This document shows positions 8,237-41,488 of a stretch of 57,375 bases of DNA, one piece after another. The position numbers and the translations under genes are program-made. The DNA is from a virus, in the IMG/VR virus record IMGVR_UViG_3300033150_001333, positions 1 to 57,375 of that record; one strand, written 5' to 3'. Position 1 is the stretch's first letter. Each line of letters begins with the position of its first letter. The notes under the pieces were generated by a model, which did no database searches, was not told the origin of the DNA, and saw nothing but the letters and a program-made list of their open reading frames with translations.

Positions 8237-8770
8237 TCATGTTAAATATTCTCTTCCTCTATTTTCATAGGTTTTATGGTGAACATTTAAATTTTGGTTT
8301 GAACCACATAATGAGCAAGTAGGGTTTTTCCATTTGACATATCTAGATACAACTCGCCAATAAAGGGTCTGGAGAAAATCTTTATAATTCATACTAGATA
8401 GGATTTCTATATCCTCTTTAGTTATTAAATCAAATAATAAATAAAAATCACAAGCTGGAGTATTTTTGCCTGTCCCAAAATTTGCTAGTTTTCTCTGTTG
8501 TCTTTCTTTTTCTCTTTTCTGGCGTTCTAATTCGGCTTTTTCTTCTCTTTCTTTGCGTTTTTCGTATCGTATTCTTTTACATTCAGGGCAAATTGCATTT
8601 TTGAAATCCCATTTATTATTTACAATTATAGTTTTCCCACAAATTGAACAAGCGATTTTATATTGTCTTAGTTTTAAAAATTCTCTTACTTTATTAAAAA
8701 CTTCTGTTTGATTTACTTCAATAGGCACTAATAAACAGGCTTCTTTTAATGCCTCTTCCCATTTCTCCAT
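8237..8770 (-). CDS. HNH endonuclease frame cut by an in-frame TGA
   Basis: The frame starts at ATG 8770. It has one zinc ribbon (CSICGK about residue 41, CPECKR about 61), a charged coiled coil (about 66-95) and an HNH N-half: CSLCGS (about 155), then NVHHKTYENRGREYL. TGA at 8237-8239 stops it exactly inside the nuclease. Beyond the TGA the same frame continues KEDLIVLCDNCHKKFH, which is the missing second half with the CxxCH metal and catalytic part, and ends at 8156-8158 (204 codons in total). So either the gene is inactivated by a nonsense change, the stop is read through, or the base is an error. It lies just before the replication initiator and after a structured leader. Confidence 0.75.
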   Translation of the reverse strand: MEKWEEALKEACLLVPIEVNQTEVFNKVREFLKLRQYKIACSICGKTIIVNNKWDFKNAICPECKRIRYEKRKEREEKAELERQKREKERQQRKLANFGTGKNTPACDFYLLFDLITKEDIEILSSMNYKDFLQTLYWRVVSRYVKWKNPTCSLCGSNQNLNVHHKTYENRGREYLT

Positions 8771-8782
8771 TTTAATTCCCTA

Positions 8783-8863
8783 AAAATAAAAAACCCACAC
8801 AGACAGAACAAGACTTTTTTGACATGGTGAAAGGCCAAGGTGTCTTGCTTGTCCGTGCGGGCT
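8783..8863 (-). terminator. Terminator-like hairpin in the leader of the HNH/initiator genes
   Basis: On the minus strand the arm 8863-8842 can pair with 8814-8793 over about 22 positions, allowing G-U pairs and a small bulge. A T-rich tail (GGGTTTTTTATTTTT) follows at 8797-8783, directly before the HNH gene. This has the form of an intrinsic terminator placed in a leader, and its arms interleave with those of a second hairpin (8824-8887). Confidence 0.6.
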
Positions 8864-8887
8864 TGGTTTCAAAATGCCTTTCACCAT
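8824..8887 (-). promoter_or_regulatory. Candidate antiterminator hairpin interleaved with the leader terminator
   Basis: ATGGTGAAAGGC (8824-8835) and GCCTTTCACCAT (8876-8887) are perfect 12-base inverted copies. An inner CCAAG/CTTGG pair (8835-8839 with 8862-8866) can extend the stem. Its loop contains the first arm of the terminator hairpin, and its 3' arm lies between the two terminator arms. The two helices therefore either exclude each other or form a pseudoknot. This is the architecture of an attenuator or RNA switch; the ligand or trigger is unknown. Confidence 0.5.
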
Positions 8888-8896
8888 ATTGATTTA

Positions 8897-8925
8897 TTCT
8901 TACCAGATTATTTTTAACTTGTCAA
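8897..8925 (-). promoter_or_regulatory. Promoter for the HNH-initiator transcript
   Basis: On the minus strand a perfect TTGACA (8925-8920) is followed by a 17-base spacer and TAAGAA (8902-8897). Transcription would start near 8890, immediately upstream of the interleaved hairpins, and run into the HNH and initiator genes. The -10 box is only a fair match. Confidence 0.5.
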
Positions 8926-8934
8926 TATCAAAAA

Positions 8935-9000
8935 TGCCTACACAAGCAAACAGGTGAGAAAGGGAGGAGAAAAGGTGGGACCTGTCTGCCCGTGCAGGCT
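8935..9000 (-). terminator. Second terminator-like hairpin, after the RecT gene
   Basis: Positions 9000-8980 and 8955-8935 (minus strand) are imperfect inverted copies, about 16 of 21 positions pairing, followed by ATTTTTG. It lies five bases past the RecT stop codon, so it probably ends the recombination operon. Its 3' arm resembles that of the leader terminator at 8842-8863 (shared CCGTGC(G/A)GGCT-type core on the plus strand), so the two hairpins may be related. Confidence 0.5.
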
Positions 9001-9005
9001 GTGAT

Positions 9006-10253
9006 TTAAAATAATTCTTCTAATTCTTTTGCTTTGGTGTCAATCATCAAGTAGATTTCTGTAGCTTCCGCCTCATCCGAAATATCATAAATACTATTAT
9101 AACCCTTTTCTTTCAAAACCTCATTCACTAGTTCACGGTCATAATTTGACAATTGCTCTTCTAATTCCACAAGCCATTGTGCGGGAGGTTGAGCTTTCTT
9201 TTCTGGTTTAGCCTTTTTAGGTTTTGGAGGAGAAGTAGCAGGCTTATTCTTTGCTTCCCATTCCTTAAATTTTTCTACAAACCTATCTATTTTCTTTGTA
9301 GCTTTTTCTTTTACATATTCCATCGAGCAATTAACACTCTTTGCTACTGTTTCAATGTATTCTTCTACTCTTTCTTTATCTAATTTTTTTTTAGCAATCA
9401 CATCATCAAAAAATATTATTCGTTCAGGTTCAGGAGCTTGGTCTTCAATTTGTTTGGGTTTGTCGTCCTTTTTTTCTTTTCCAGCCTCCATATCCTTTAT
9501 ATCAATCACTTTACCTTGGAAAGTTACTTCTTCCTTTTTAGGTTCTTCTTCAATTGTAGACAATACAATGTCCTCTTCTTCCTCAGAAATTGCTATATCT
9601 AATTCAGGTGTTTTGCGTTTCATTTTAAGCATTTTCAAAACTGCACTCTTTCTCATCATAGCTTCAGGCCATAAATGCCAAGGACTATCTTTAGTTCCAG
9701 CTTGTTCAGCCTTTCTCCATGAAAGAGACATTTTTCTTCTTTTTTCAATTTCTTCCATTCTGATTATATCGAAATCCACTCTATCATCCTTTTTCCAAAG
9801 AGCGTAAGCACAAACAGCTTTCCCTCTGTCTTTTAATGCAATTTTATGGTGCAAATAAGCATCAGTGCCCAATTGATAATTAAACTCATCATTCTCATAA
9901 ACTACATGGGCTTCCACTTCAGCATCTGTTACTCTGTTTACCAACTCAATAAGACCTTGATAACCAATTTGGGCATTGCATTCTATTGGATGTCCTTGTT
10001 TTCTATTATTACGCCTAGGTATCAAATAAACATTATCTCCGCCTGGTAGTAATCCCCACTCTGCACATTTCAATAATGCACTGAGCAAACTTTCAGGAGT
10101 GCATTGTTGCAATTGAGGGTTTTTGAAAAGAGCGTTCCAAAAGGCTGCAATCAGGACATCTTTCTTCATTCCTTTAGGTAGCACTTTTAACTTCTCACTT
10201 GTTTCAGGAGAAACTAATTTGGCCTTGATTTCTGCTAGTTGATTTTTTTTCAT
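9006..10253 (-). CDS. recT: RecT-family single-strand annealing protein
   Basis: Residues 1-240 match RecT: an N-terminal helical part, LLSALLKCAEWGLLPG, the NAQIGYQGLIEL motif, IRMEEIEKRRKMS and the PEAMMRKSAVLKMLK segment. RecT anneals complementary single strands and promotes recombination together with a 5'-3' exonuclease, encoded here at 11,672-12,196. The protein is 415 residues against about 270 for typical RecT. The extra part is an acidic and Lys/Pro-rich linker (about 240-355) plus a folded-looking C-terminus (WLVELEEQLSNYDREL..., about 356-415). This tail may recruit the host SSB or another partner. It starts three bases from the stop of the downstream-numbered membrane gene. Confidence 0.93.
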   Translation of the reverse strand: MKKNQLAEIKAKLVSPETSEKLKVLPKGMKKDVLIAAFWNALFKNPQLQQCTPESLLSALLKCAEWGLLPGGDNVYLIPRRNNRKQGHPIECNAQIGYQGLIELVNRVTDAEVEAHVVYENDEFNYQLGTDAYLHHKIALKDRGKAVCAYALWKKDDRVDFDIIRMEEIEKRRKMSLSWRKAEQAGTKDSPWHLWPEAMMRKSAVLKMLKMKRKTPELDIAISEEEEDIVLSTIEEEPKKEEVTFQGKVIDIKDMEAGKEKKDDKPKQIEDQAPEPERIIFFDDVIAKKKLDKERVEEYIETVAKSVNCSMEYVKEKATKKIDRFVEKFKEWEAKNKPATSPPKPKKAKPEKKAQPPAQWLVELEEQLSNYDRELVNEVLKEKGYNSIYDISDEAEATEIYLMIDTKAKELEELF

Positions 10254-14667: not shown

Positions 14668-15189
14668 TTATAAATAAAATTCTTTTCCCAAAACATACTG
14701 CAATGCTTCAGCAATATGGGTTGTCTTGATATTATCTTCTTTGTCTATTTCGCTAATAGTTTTAGCAACTCTTAAAGTTGTCTCTAATTCAGAAGGAAGC
14801 ATCCCTTTGGTTTTATATGCAGTTTCCAGAAGATTTAACCCTTCTTTATCTATTTTGCTTTTATCAAATTCAAGATACTCAAAGTTAAAGCAGTTAATTG
14901 CTGTAAAAGTCATATCCGTTTGAGGAAGATTTATTTGATACTTTTTAATTTCTTCTGGCGTGCATTTACATATTCTATTTGTGGAATTGAAGTTACCGCA
15001 AGGGCAAGGTTTTTTGACATAAATGATTTCTTCCAAAAGGTATCTTTGTTCTTCAGGAATGGTCTTTTTTAATCCGAATACTACTTGTTGAATGAAATAT
15101 ACATCACTCGTAATAATCAATAATGAATGTTTGCCATTTAAAGCAACATCTAAAACTCTTAAAAAATGTGGTGAATTAAATTTAATCAT
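14668..15189 (-). CDS. Shrunken ComM/Mg-chelatase-like AAA protein lacking a P-loop
   Basis: The 173-residue protein resembles bacterial ComM (YifB; Mg-chelatase ChlI-like AAA+), but is about a third of its length (about 500). FLRVLDVALNGKHSLLIITS (9-28) matches the region just before Walker A, where ComM has GHNLLL and GPPGSGKT, but here the P-loop is gone. PCPCGNFNS...CKCTPEEIKKYQ (61-85) matches the CxC...CxC insert of ComM (Cys62, 64, 74, 76). LRVAKTISEIDKEDNIKT and HIAEALQYV near the end match the C-terminal lid. ComM is a hexameric branch-migration helicase, so this protein could be a zinc-binding partner or an inhibitor of the host hexamer. Confidence 0.65.
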   Translation of the reverse strand: MIKFNSPHFLRVLDVALNGKHSLLIITSDVYFIQQVVFGLKKTIPEEQRYLLEEIIYVKKPCPCGNFNSTNRICKCTPEEIKKYQINLPQTDMTFTAINCFNFEYLEFDKSKIDKEGLNLLETAYKTKGMLPSELETTLRVAKTISEIDKEDNIKTTHIAEALQYVLGKEFYL

Positions 15190-40309: not shown

Positions 40310-41488
40310 TTACGGAAGGGGCTTTATCAGTGAGGAATAATCCTCCTGATTTAGGGCAGGCTTACAAACTGCCCAGCCCAAGAAGGAACTTTTGCCTTCA
40401 AGGGCAAAGATAGCAAGATTTTTGGAGGCATTGTAATCAGCATGGACTTGATAGCCACAAGCCTTACAACAAAAAACAGAACCATTACGATTAGAAGATT
40501 GAATATGGCCACACTTACTACATCTTTGAGAACTGTATTTAGGGTCAACAAACCAAACATCAATACCCTCTTCAAGTGCTTTGTATTGAATATAATTTGG
40601 GAGTTTAGAAAATGCCCAGAGAGAAACTTTATGTTTTTCAGCTTTTCTCCATTTTTTTACACTTCCTCTAATACTATTAAGATTTTCCATAGCAATTACT
40701 TGAGCACCAATCCTTTTTGCCTTCTCAACAATTTGCCGAGAAATATTATGCAAAACCCAGTTAACAAAGCGGTTTTCTCGCCCACTCATTCTCTTAAGCA
40801 AGAGATGGGCAGAGCGAGTGCCTTTCTTTTGGATTTTGCTTCTCCGTTCGGCAAACTGTCTTCTTTTATCATTAAGCATTCCTGCTTTAAAAAATTTGCC
40901 TATAGAGGTTACAGCAATATTCTTAACTCCCAAATCAACTCCCATAACAGTTTCAGGTTTTCTAACAAGAGCGGGTTTAATTATTGTAATATTAAGAAAG
41001 AAATCTTTGCCATTATAAGAAAGTGTAGCAGTCCTAAATTCATAATTTGTATTATCAAGTATTTTCTTTTGATAATCTCCAAGAAGATATTTGGCTTTTA
41101 CTCTACCATTTACAGTAGAAAAAGTGCATTCTCTATTTTTAATAGTTACAGTTCTTTTATCAAGTTGAATTGCAGAAAAAGGCCTGAAGGTTGGTTTAGT
41201 TGCTTTTCTCTTTTTACTCCAATTGATAACACAAAGTTTAACCGCATCACAAGCTTTATTCCGAGCAGAACATATCAAATTAGCTTGAAGATTGGTTTGC
41301 TTTTTAAGTGGATAGTAAACAAGTTTATGGAGTTTAGATTTATTGATTATCTTCTTTTCAGGCTTCCATGCTTCATTTATGCAAAAATTAAGAGCAAAAT
41401 TATATTGTCTAAAAGTTTCAAGAACATCTTGCTTTCTTTCTTGTGGAATATCCAGTTTTACTTTACAAGTCTTGATTATTTTTCTCAT
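40310..41488 (-). CDS. tnpB: TnpB RNA-guided nuclease (IS605 OrfB family)
   Basis: The 392-residue protein has the complete RuvC set: GVDLGVKN (Asp185), AMENLNS (Glu268) and HADYNASKN (Asp351). A zinc ribbon lies between the last two, with SQRCSKCGH (Cys323, Cys326) and CKACG (Cys341, Cys344). TnpB uses an omega RNA made from the element's 3' end to cut DNA next to a short motif. The 3' end of the gene and the RE hairpin (40,298-40,400) would encode that RNA. A nearly perfect promoter lies upstream (41,498-41,525). An intact catalytic triad suggests an active nuclease. Confidence 0.93.
   Translation of the reverse strand: MRKIIKTCKVKLDIPQERKQDVLETFRQYNFALNFCINEAWKPEKKIINKSKLHKLVYYPLKKQTNLQANLICSARNKACDAVKLCVINWSKKRKATKPTFRPFSAIQLDKRTVTIKNRECTFSTVNGRVKAKYLLGDYQKKILDNTNYEFRTATLSYNGKDFFLNITIIKPALVRKPETVMGVDLGVKNIAVTSIGKFFKAGMLNDKRRQFAERRSKIQKKGTRSAHLLLKRMSGRENRFVNWVLHNISRQIVEKAKRIGAQVIAMENLNSIRGSVKKWRKAEKHKVSLWAFSKLPNYIQYKALEEGIDVWFVDPKYSSQRCSKCGHIQSSNRNGSVFCCKACGYQVHADYNASKNLAIFALEGKSSFLGWAVCKPALNQEDYSSLIKPLP

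Follow-up and report, generated by a model that had tools for sequence, protein, structure and literature searches.

A conserved leader RNA with interleaved helices ahead of phage replication genes: a candidate transcription attenuator

Between recT and the replication operon of the virus studied here lies a short leader with four pairing arms, which raises the question of whether its RNA really adopts a structure and what such a structure might do in front of the replication genes. The window, that is, the whole stretch of DNA analysed, is an IMG/VR record of 57,375 bases, and the leader is read from its minus strand. The sequence-only reading had described a TTGACA promoter followed by arms in the order A, B, A' and B', with A and A' being perfect 12-base complements and B and B' forming a long terminator-like helix before a U-run. 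All of these elements were recovered on the minus strand, as listed below.

8897-8925, minus strand: promoter, with TTGACA (8925-8920), a 17-nt spacer and an extended -10 element TGG-TAAGAA (8905-8897); 14 nt after TTGACA come TGG, TAAGAA (8902-8897), nine bases and then A
8887-8876, minus strand: arm A, ATGGTGAAAGGC, at the predicted 5' end of the RNA and beginning with AUG
8875-8862, minus strand: linker L1 from A to B, 14 nt in the window
8861-8842, minus strand: arm B, 5' strand of the terminator-like stem
8841-8836, minus strand: linker L2 from B to A'
8835-8824, minus strand: arm A', GCCTTTCACCAT, complement of A, in the apical loop of B:B'
8823-8815, minus strand: linker L3, GUCAAAAAA, whose GUCAA pairs with UUGGC (8838-8834)
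8814-8794, minus strand: arm B', which completes the terminator-like stem as its 3' strand; its sequence is strongly conserved
8793-8782, minus strand: U-run, TTTTTTATTTTT, directly past the B:B' stem

In the window, A and A' are 12 nt long, 100% complementary and separated by 40 nt, and of the 14 pairs listed across the whole window at a spacing of up to 80, no other reaches 100% complementarity. The leader RNA was predicted to fold at -38.6 kcal/mol (z = -3.47), a value equalled in 1 of 200 shuffles. Of 20,000 Markov-shuffled leaders, 74 contained a perfect 11-bp inverted repeat at some position; thus, the repeat is unlikely but not impossible on one sequence, and it is the relatives that decide. 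As in an attenuator, the stem and its U-run sit between the promoter and the first gene. Transcription generally starts 6-8 nt downstream of the -10 element, and A begins 7-9 nt past it across the 10 distinct copies of the leader described below, so that A would lie at, or a few bases from, the 5' end of the RNA. The arrangement TTGACA-17-TA is present in 9 of these 10 copies. In the copy of locus L152, a short tandem duplication just before position 1637 shifts TTGACA off the -10 element, and the remaining leader is intact.

Relatives were collected from IMG/VR by HNH and RecT searches, by scans for the leader pattern and by a search with the initiator of locus L045. Leaders were called by sequence and by a covariance model, R1, which covers only B:B' and the apical stem and excludes A:A'. 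The leader was found on 12 virus contigs including the window (3300016457_000426, 3300014914_000500, 3300017593_000582, 3300021483_000006, 3300021491_000039, 3300005265_000383, 3300021491_000048, 3300021483_000025, 3300021495_000009, 3300005098_000378, 3300005098_000118 and the window itself), corresponding to 10 distinct sequences (two contig pairs share one). All copies outside the window come from IMG/VR metagenome contigs and are related to each other. Apart from the window, all nine contigs with a close RecT (L010-L017, L054) carry the leader downstream of recT, and no R1 match was observed at 73 distant RecT loci (L018, L019, L055-L125). Two loci with a close L045-type initiator, L150 and L151, also lack it (L151 has only a 13.9-bit match elsewhere), which indicates that the leader is not universal. 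In the first pattern scan, 10 of 22 contigs carried the leader and 12 were chance matches by eye; in the second, the corresponding numbers were 10 and 7 of 17. Among bacterial genome contigs, none of 13 pattern matches was a leader according to R1. Locus L127, the only one of the 13 with even a weak R1 match (21 bits, E 0.036), was considered as a further copy and rejected, the match lying away from the pattern site and looking like another hairpin. No match was found for the window copy among 50,697 phage records or for the L152 copy among 72,556 plasmid records. A transposase search in plasmids, bearing on the host of the phage, found nothing.

Covariation in relatives had been set beforehand by the sequence-only reading as the first half of the test of its proposal, and it was observed in both helices: 7 of 11 A:A' positions and 3 of 20 B:B' pairs differ between copies in both partners and still pair, in what is a small sample of ten related sequences and four arm versions. 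Since MAFFT sets A one column off register, A:A' was counted ungapped by script. Eleven Watson-Crick pairs are present in each of the 10 distinct copies (110 of 110 cells), with a 12th in some. The arms occur as version 1 (window, L045), version 2 (L042, L152), version 3 (L026, L036, L013, L039) and version 4 (L027, L030). When the 3' letters were redealt among the four versions, all 44 paired cells were reached in none of 20,000 tries, and sliding A' by 1-3 nt left 36-68 of 110 cells paired. The AUG/CAU end of A:A' is invariant, which pairing alone does not explain.

The 20-pair B:B' helix has 98.0% of its cells in standard pairs, against 29-55% in slid registers, and one of its doubly changed pairs occurs as C-G, U-G and U-A. 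The shuffle control was only modest for this helix, the number of double-change pairs being equalled in 28 of 500 trials and that of further pair types in 13 of 500, because 11 of the 20 pairs are invariant. The apical stem UUGGC/GUCAA, which would hold A' in a ten-base loop, is invariant at 5 of 5 pairs and so is no proof of pairing by itself. On the other hand, B:B' contains many G-U pairs, each of which would be A-C on the plus strand; thus, the minus-strand RNA is the constrained, functional form. On the basis of the pairing and covariation in A:A' and B:B', we conclude that the leader RNA structure is real and conserved, with selection keeping both helices on the minus-strand RNA. L3 measures 9 nt in L026 and in the four copies with versions 1 and 2, compared with 8 nt in the remaining five, a difference that tracks 12 versus 11 Watson-Crick A:A' pairs with the exception of L026. 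This pattern would fit an L3 that spans A:A' in a pseudoknot, with few independent changes behind it.

Unlike B:B', the A:A' helix is free of G-U pairs at positions 1-11 throughout the copies. Such strict Watson-Crick symmetry (zero G-U in 110 cells) would also be expected if A and A' were DNA half-sites for a phage repressor or activator, covarying through one protein, with B:B' as a plain terminator. Phage repressor specificities vary in just such a matched fashion, and A lies on the predicted transcription start. However, the half-sites would be 40 bp apart and in opposite orientation around B, A' lies precisely within the apical loop of a hairpin whose G-U pairs show constraint on the RNA, and the operon yielded no linked candidate repressor. 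The lack of G-U pairs keeps this operator reading under consideration, and we regard it as improbable.

Conservation is distributed unevenly along the leader. Between the window and L036, identity is 92% in the promoter, 50% in A, 60% across L1, B and L2, 58% in A' and 97% across L3 and B'. Such low identity from A to A' between conserved flanks suggests that this module has been exchanged or has diverged fast, with its pairing kept. Two versions span separate lineages: version 1 in the window and version 2 in L042 belong to the recT lineage, and both versions are also present in the L045/L152 lineage, whose two initiators are 92% identical over the best segment and which bear the same sample number. 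In the RecT tree, L017 (version 4) groups with version 3 with support (96/96) and is separated from L010, which also has version 4; this tree comprises nine sequences, too few for dating events. As judged from sequence comparison, such variation is what would be expected for a specificity element moving between lineages.

The same distribution bears on the possibility of a riboswitch bound by a small molecule or a protein, in which the invariant UUGGC / GUCAAAAA of the terminator loop would be the binding site and A:A' the expression platform. The apical stem is indeed invariant and L3 nearly so, and a riboswitch inside a terminator stem has a precedent in the HMP-PP (thiS) element, where the terminator stem-loop itself is described as housing the regulatory element and a pseudoknot may form (PMC6478431). 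The core of that element is described as conserved and metabolite-binding, whereas the pairing module here is hypervariable. In the present leader the helix that would take the decision is the most variable part, rather than the most conserved one, and the conserved core is very small. Screening against Rfam gave no match at the gathering score in the whole window, and the three matches in 8765-9010 were sub-threshold and chance-like (best E 0.14, to a microRNA family); a known RNA class is ruled out on this basis, in line with the original failure to recognize any riboswitch consensus. A small-molecule riboswitch is therefore a less likely explanation, and we give the riboswitch reading only a small chance. 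Type III toxin-antitoxin RNAs consist of tandem repeats before a terminator and a toxin gene. The leader has a single A/A' unit and its downstream genes are not homologous, which ruled out this class too. No published description of the leader was found in titles and abstract openings on leaderless attenuation, pseudoknot terminators, P4 immunity, plasmid attenuation, structured phage RNAs or hypervariable leader RNAs.

The genes and the second long hairpin around the leader in the window are as follows.

10253-9006, minus strand: recT (Pfam RecT, E 3.7e-32)
8936-8999, minus strand: second long hairpin, just 3' of recT, with 20 bp and a 24-nt pyrimidine-rich loop (z = -6.95)
8237-8770, minus strand: HNH endonuclease-like gene, first of the operon, 177 aa
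6898-8166, minus strand: replication initiation protein (DnaD / O-like), 422 aa (PHROG 270, E 1.3e-23; tblastn to DnaD-like phage proteins)

The position before replication genes, as originally noted for the window, holds in relatives as well. The gene right behind the leader varies: it is the HNH gene in the window and L036, the replication initiator in L026, L030 and L045, a predicted protein common to L027 and L013, and a short frame in L039. The leader is kept while the next gene changes and is therefore an element of the operon rather than of the HNH gene. In L042, the place of the HNH gene after the leader is taken by a protein that resembles ParB at its start and a methyltransferase at its end (named by eye). 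The HNH proteins of the window and L036 are 90% identical; at 8237-8270 (minus strand) the window has an in-frame TGA where L036 has TGG, hence a shorter protein. By eye, the frame past this TGA is open up to the initiator start and contains the end of the HNH motif.

The recT-side hairpin (8999-8936) was absent from the sequence-only reading. Its 5' arm resembles leader arm B, and model R1 also matches it. The hairpin and its loop CCUCCUCCC are conserved 3' of recT in the eight relatives inspected, often with an SD-like GGAGG next to them, and six contigs sharing a 17-mer of the hairpin gave no R1 match. Elsewhere in the window, a TnpB / Cas12f1-like transposon protein (40310-41488, minus strand; PF07282, E 4.4e-22) lies within the plus-strand late region, and a protein matching magnesium chelatase ChlI domains (14668-15189, minus strand; PF13335, E 2.6e-08) lies near the replication and recombination genes.

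The retention of the leader while neighbouring genes are replaced also speaks against the idea that nothing is regulated here. According to this idea, the locus would be a promoter with an ordinary terminator, and A and A' would be kept identical by template switching during replication, a process that can correct imperfect inverted repeats. However, every one of the 10 copies has the same arm ends (11-12 pairs), an AUG at the start and an unchanged position relative to the promoter and the terminator loop. We therefore consider this explanation very improbable.

How the two helices could relate to each other depends on their topology and on the order in which they form. A:A' and B:B' interleave without common bases. 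The sequence-only reading had stated that they could not form side by side as simple hairpins; the interleaving stands, but the helices are not strictly exclusive, as a pseudoknot could hold both. With no shared base, ordinary strand displacement cannot swap one for the other, and the routes left are that A:A' opens, that B' threads its loop or that a pseudoknot forms. With pseudoknots disallowed, the best full-length fold was B:B' in all nine copies folded (-38.0 to -47.4 kcal/mol), the best folds with A:A' in these copies reaching -26.9 to -33.8 kcal/mol. When growing chains were folded for 3 of the 10 copies, A:A' was the best structure between lengths of about 66-72 nt and about 90-93 nt, and B:B' at greater lengths, indicating that A:A' can form first in time; any delay that it imposed on B:B' would depend on kinetics and topology.

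We consider it somewhat probable that the leader is a transcription attenuator of the phage replication operon, in which A:A' would gate the B:B' terminator and A/A' would serve as a specificity tag. In the nascent RNA, A:A' would form first, trapping B in its loop. The 20-bp B:B' helix would then have to thread the closed A:A' loop or break A:A', and would come too late at the U-run, so that the polymerase would read through into the replication genes. If A were kept from its own A', B:B' would form and transcription would end, leaving an RNA of about 110 nt. The competitor for A may be another copy of this short RNA, whose A' loop would pair with the nascent A; this is the least certain step. 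Because A/A' varies as a matched pair while the promoter and B' stay constant, another copy of the leader RNA would be the simplest competitor, and a system with such a competitor would sense its own kind and its copy number. Pairing of a 16-mer containing A with the A' loop was predicted at -21.8 to -23.1 kcal/mol in the four copies tried. The search for other A' targets in the window (at most two mismatches) gave seven sites including A and A', against 4.1 expected, and 12 of 100 shuffles reached seven; thus, targets of A' elsewhere in the window receive no support.

Several observations count against the attenuator reading, namely that equilibrium folds favour B:B', that strict Watson-Crick covariation in A:A' would also be expected from a protein-bound inverted repeat in DNA, and that one end of A:A' is the invariant AUG/CAU. 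From the switch as originally proposed, the two conserved, covarying helices stand; switching, termination and any action in trans are inferred.

The invariant AUG is the best argument for a different gate, namely a ribosome. The AUG of A would be a leaderless or near-leaderless start, a ribosome crossing B would block both A:A' and B:B' and give readthrough, and A:A' hiding the AUG would lead to termination. The AUG has been kept while 7 of the other 8 pairs turned over. Moreover, it opens a frame of 35-48 codons that runs past the U-run in 10 of 10 copies and ends near the start of the next gene in most of them, with stops in 0 of 337 codons, the two alternative frames having 14 in 332 and 11 in 329. 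However, B, B' and L3 hold few possible stops in any frame, and when only the linkers were shuffled with the arms fixed, the frame was open in 42-62% of trials per copy, so that 10 of 10 open frames in related copies are only mildly surprising. The peptide is not conserved, the frame shifts inside the leader (the 3' part in the window and L152 is off-frame relative to the other eight copies), and no ribosome-binding site was seen upstream of the AUG. Given how often the frame stays open by chance, ribosome gating is treated as a rival and not as the main reading, and we judge it unlikely, if far from negligible.

For the attenuator reading, partial parallels are available. In the plasmids pT181 and pIP501, a terminator lies in the leader of the replication initiator gene, and attenuation uses a counter-transcribed antisense RNA. 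The leader studied here differs in that A finds its complement within its own transcript and that no conserved promoter facing the other way was seen. The only site in the window that could read into the leader from the other strand is a weak plus-strand promoter-like sequence at 8601-8629, inside the HNH gene (6 such sites versus 7.1 expected). In pT181, specificity is described as residing in letters of the RNA loop and stem that can be changed as matched pairs (PMC3753616).

In phage P4, pairing of the CI RNA with leader sequences terminates transcription of the replication genes (PMC4825925). The leader resembles this system in being a replication-operon leader with self-complementary segments, in which an RNA from the same leader would pair in or onto it; such pairing is described for P4 (PMC4825925) and is here predicted from sequence. 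On the other hand, the P4 CI RNA is described as a processed product with two targets (seqA and seqC), whereas the present leader has a single A and a single A', the latter placed in the loop of a hairpin with a U tail. Lysogeny also finds no support here: no integrase or clear repressor was found among the proteins scanned (a subset of ORFs), leaving immunity in the lysogenic sense unsupported. The Gifsy-1 IsrK RNA provides a further comparison: in this prophage leader, the short RNA left by termination and the readthrough RNA are each described as functional and as pairing with one another (PMC4825925). IsrK opens translation of a downstream frame, whereas the decision predicted here is transcription termination. 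The P4 CI RNA and pT181 show that each half of the attenuator idea exists in nature.

A more tentative extension of the attenuator reading, which we would not expect to hold in full, is that of a self-recognizing RNA. The terminated leader of about 110 nt, with A as its 5' tail and the complementary A' in a loop, would act in trans on nascent leaders of the same version and thereby tune the expression of the replication genes to kin and copy number. Compatibility groups under diversifying selection, exchanged between phage lineages, would then be represented by the four A/A' versions.

What this locus offers is a small, covariation-backed candidate RNA control element before phage replication genes, one that is unnamed in the libraries searched. 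With interleaved helices that share no base, it would put to the test whether a terminator can be gated by topology and the order of folding alone. If A/A' is a specificity tag, one short RNA would serve the phages both in controlling replication and in telling their own kind from others.
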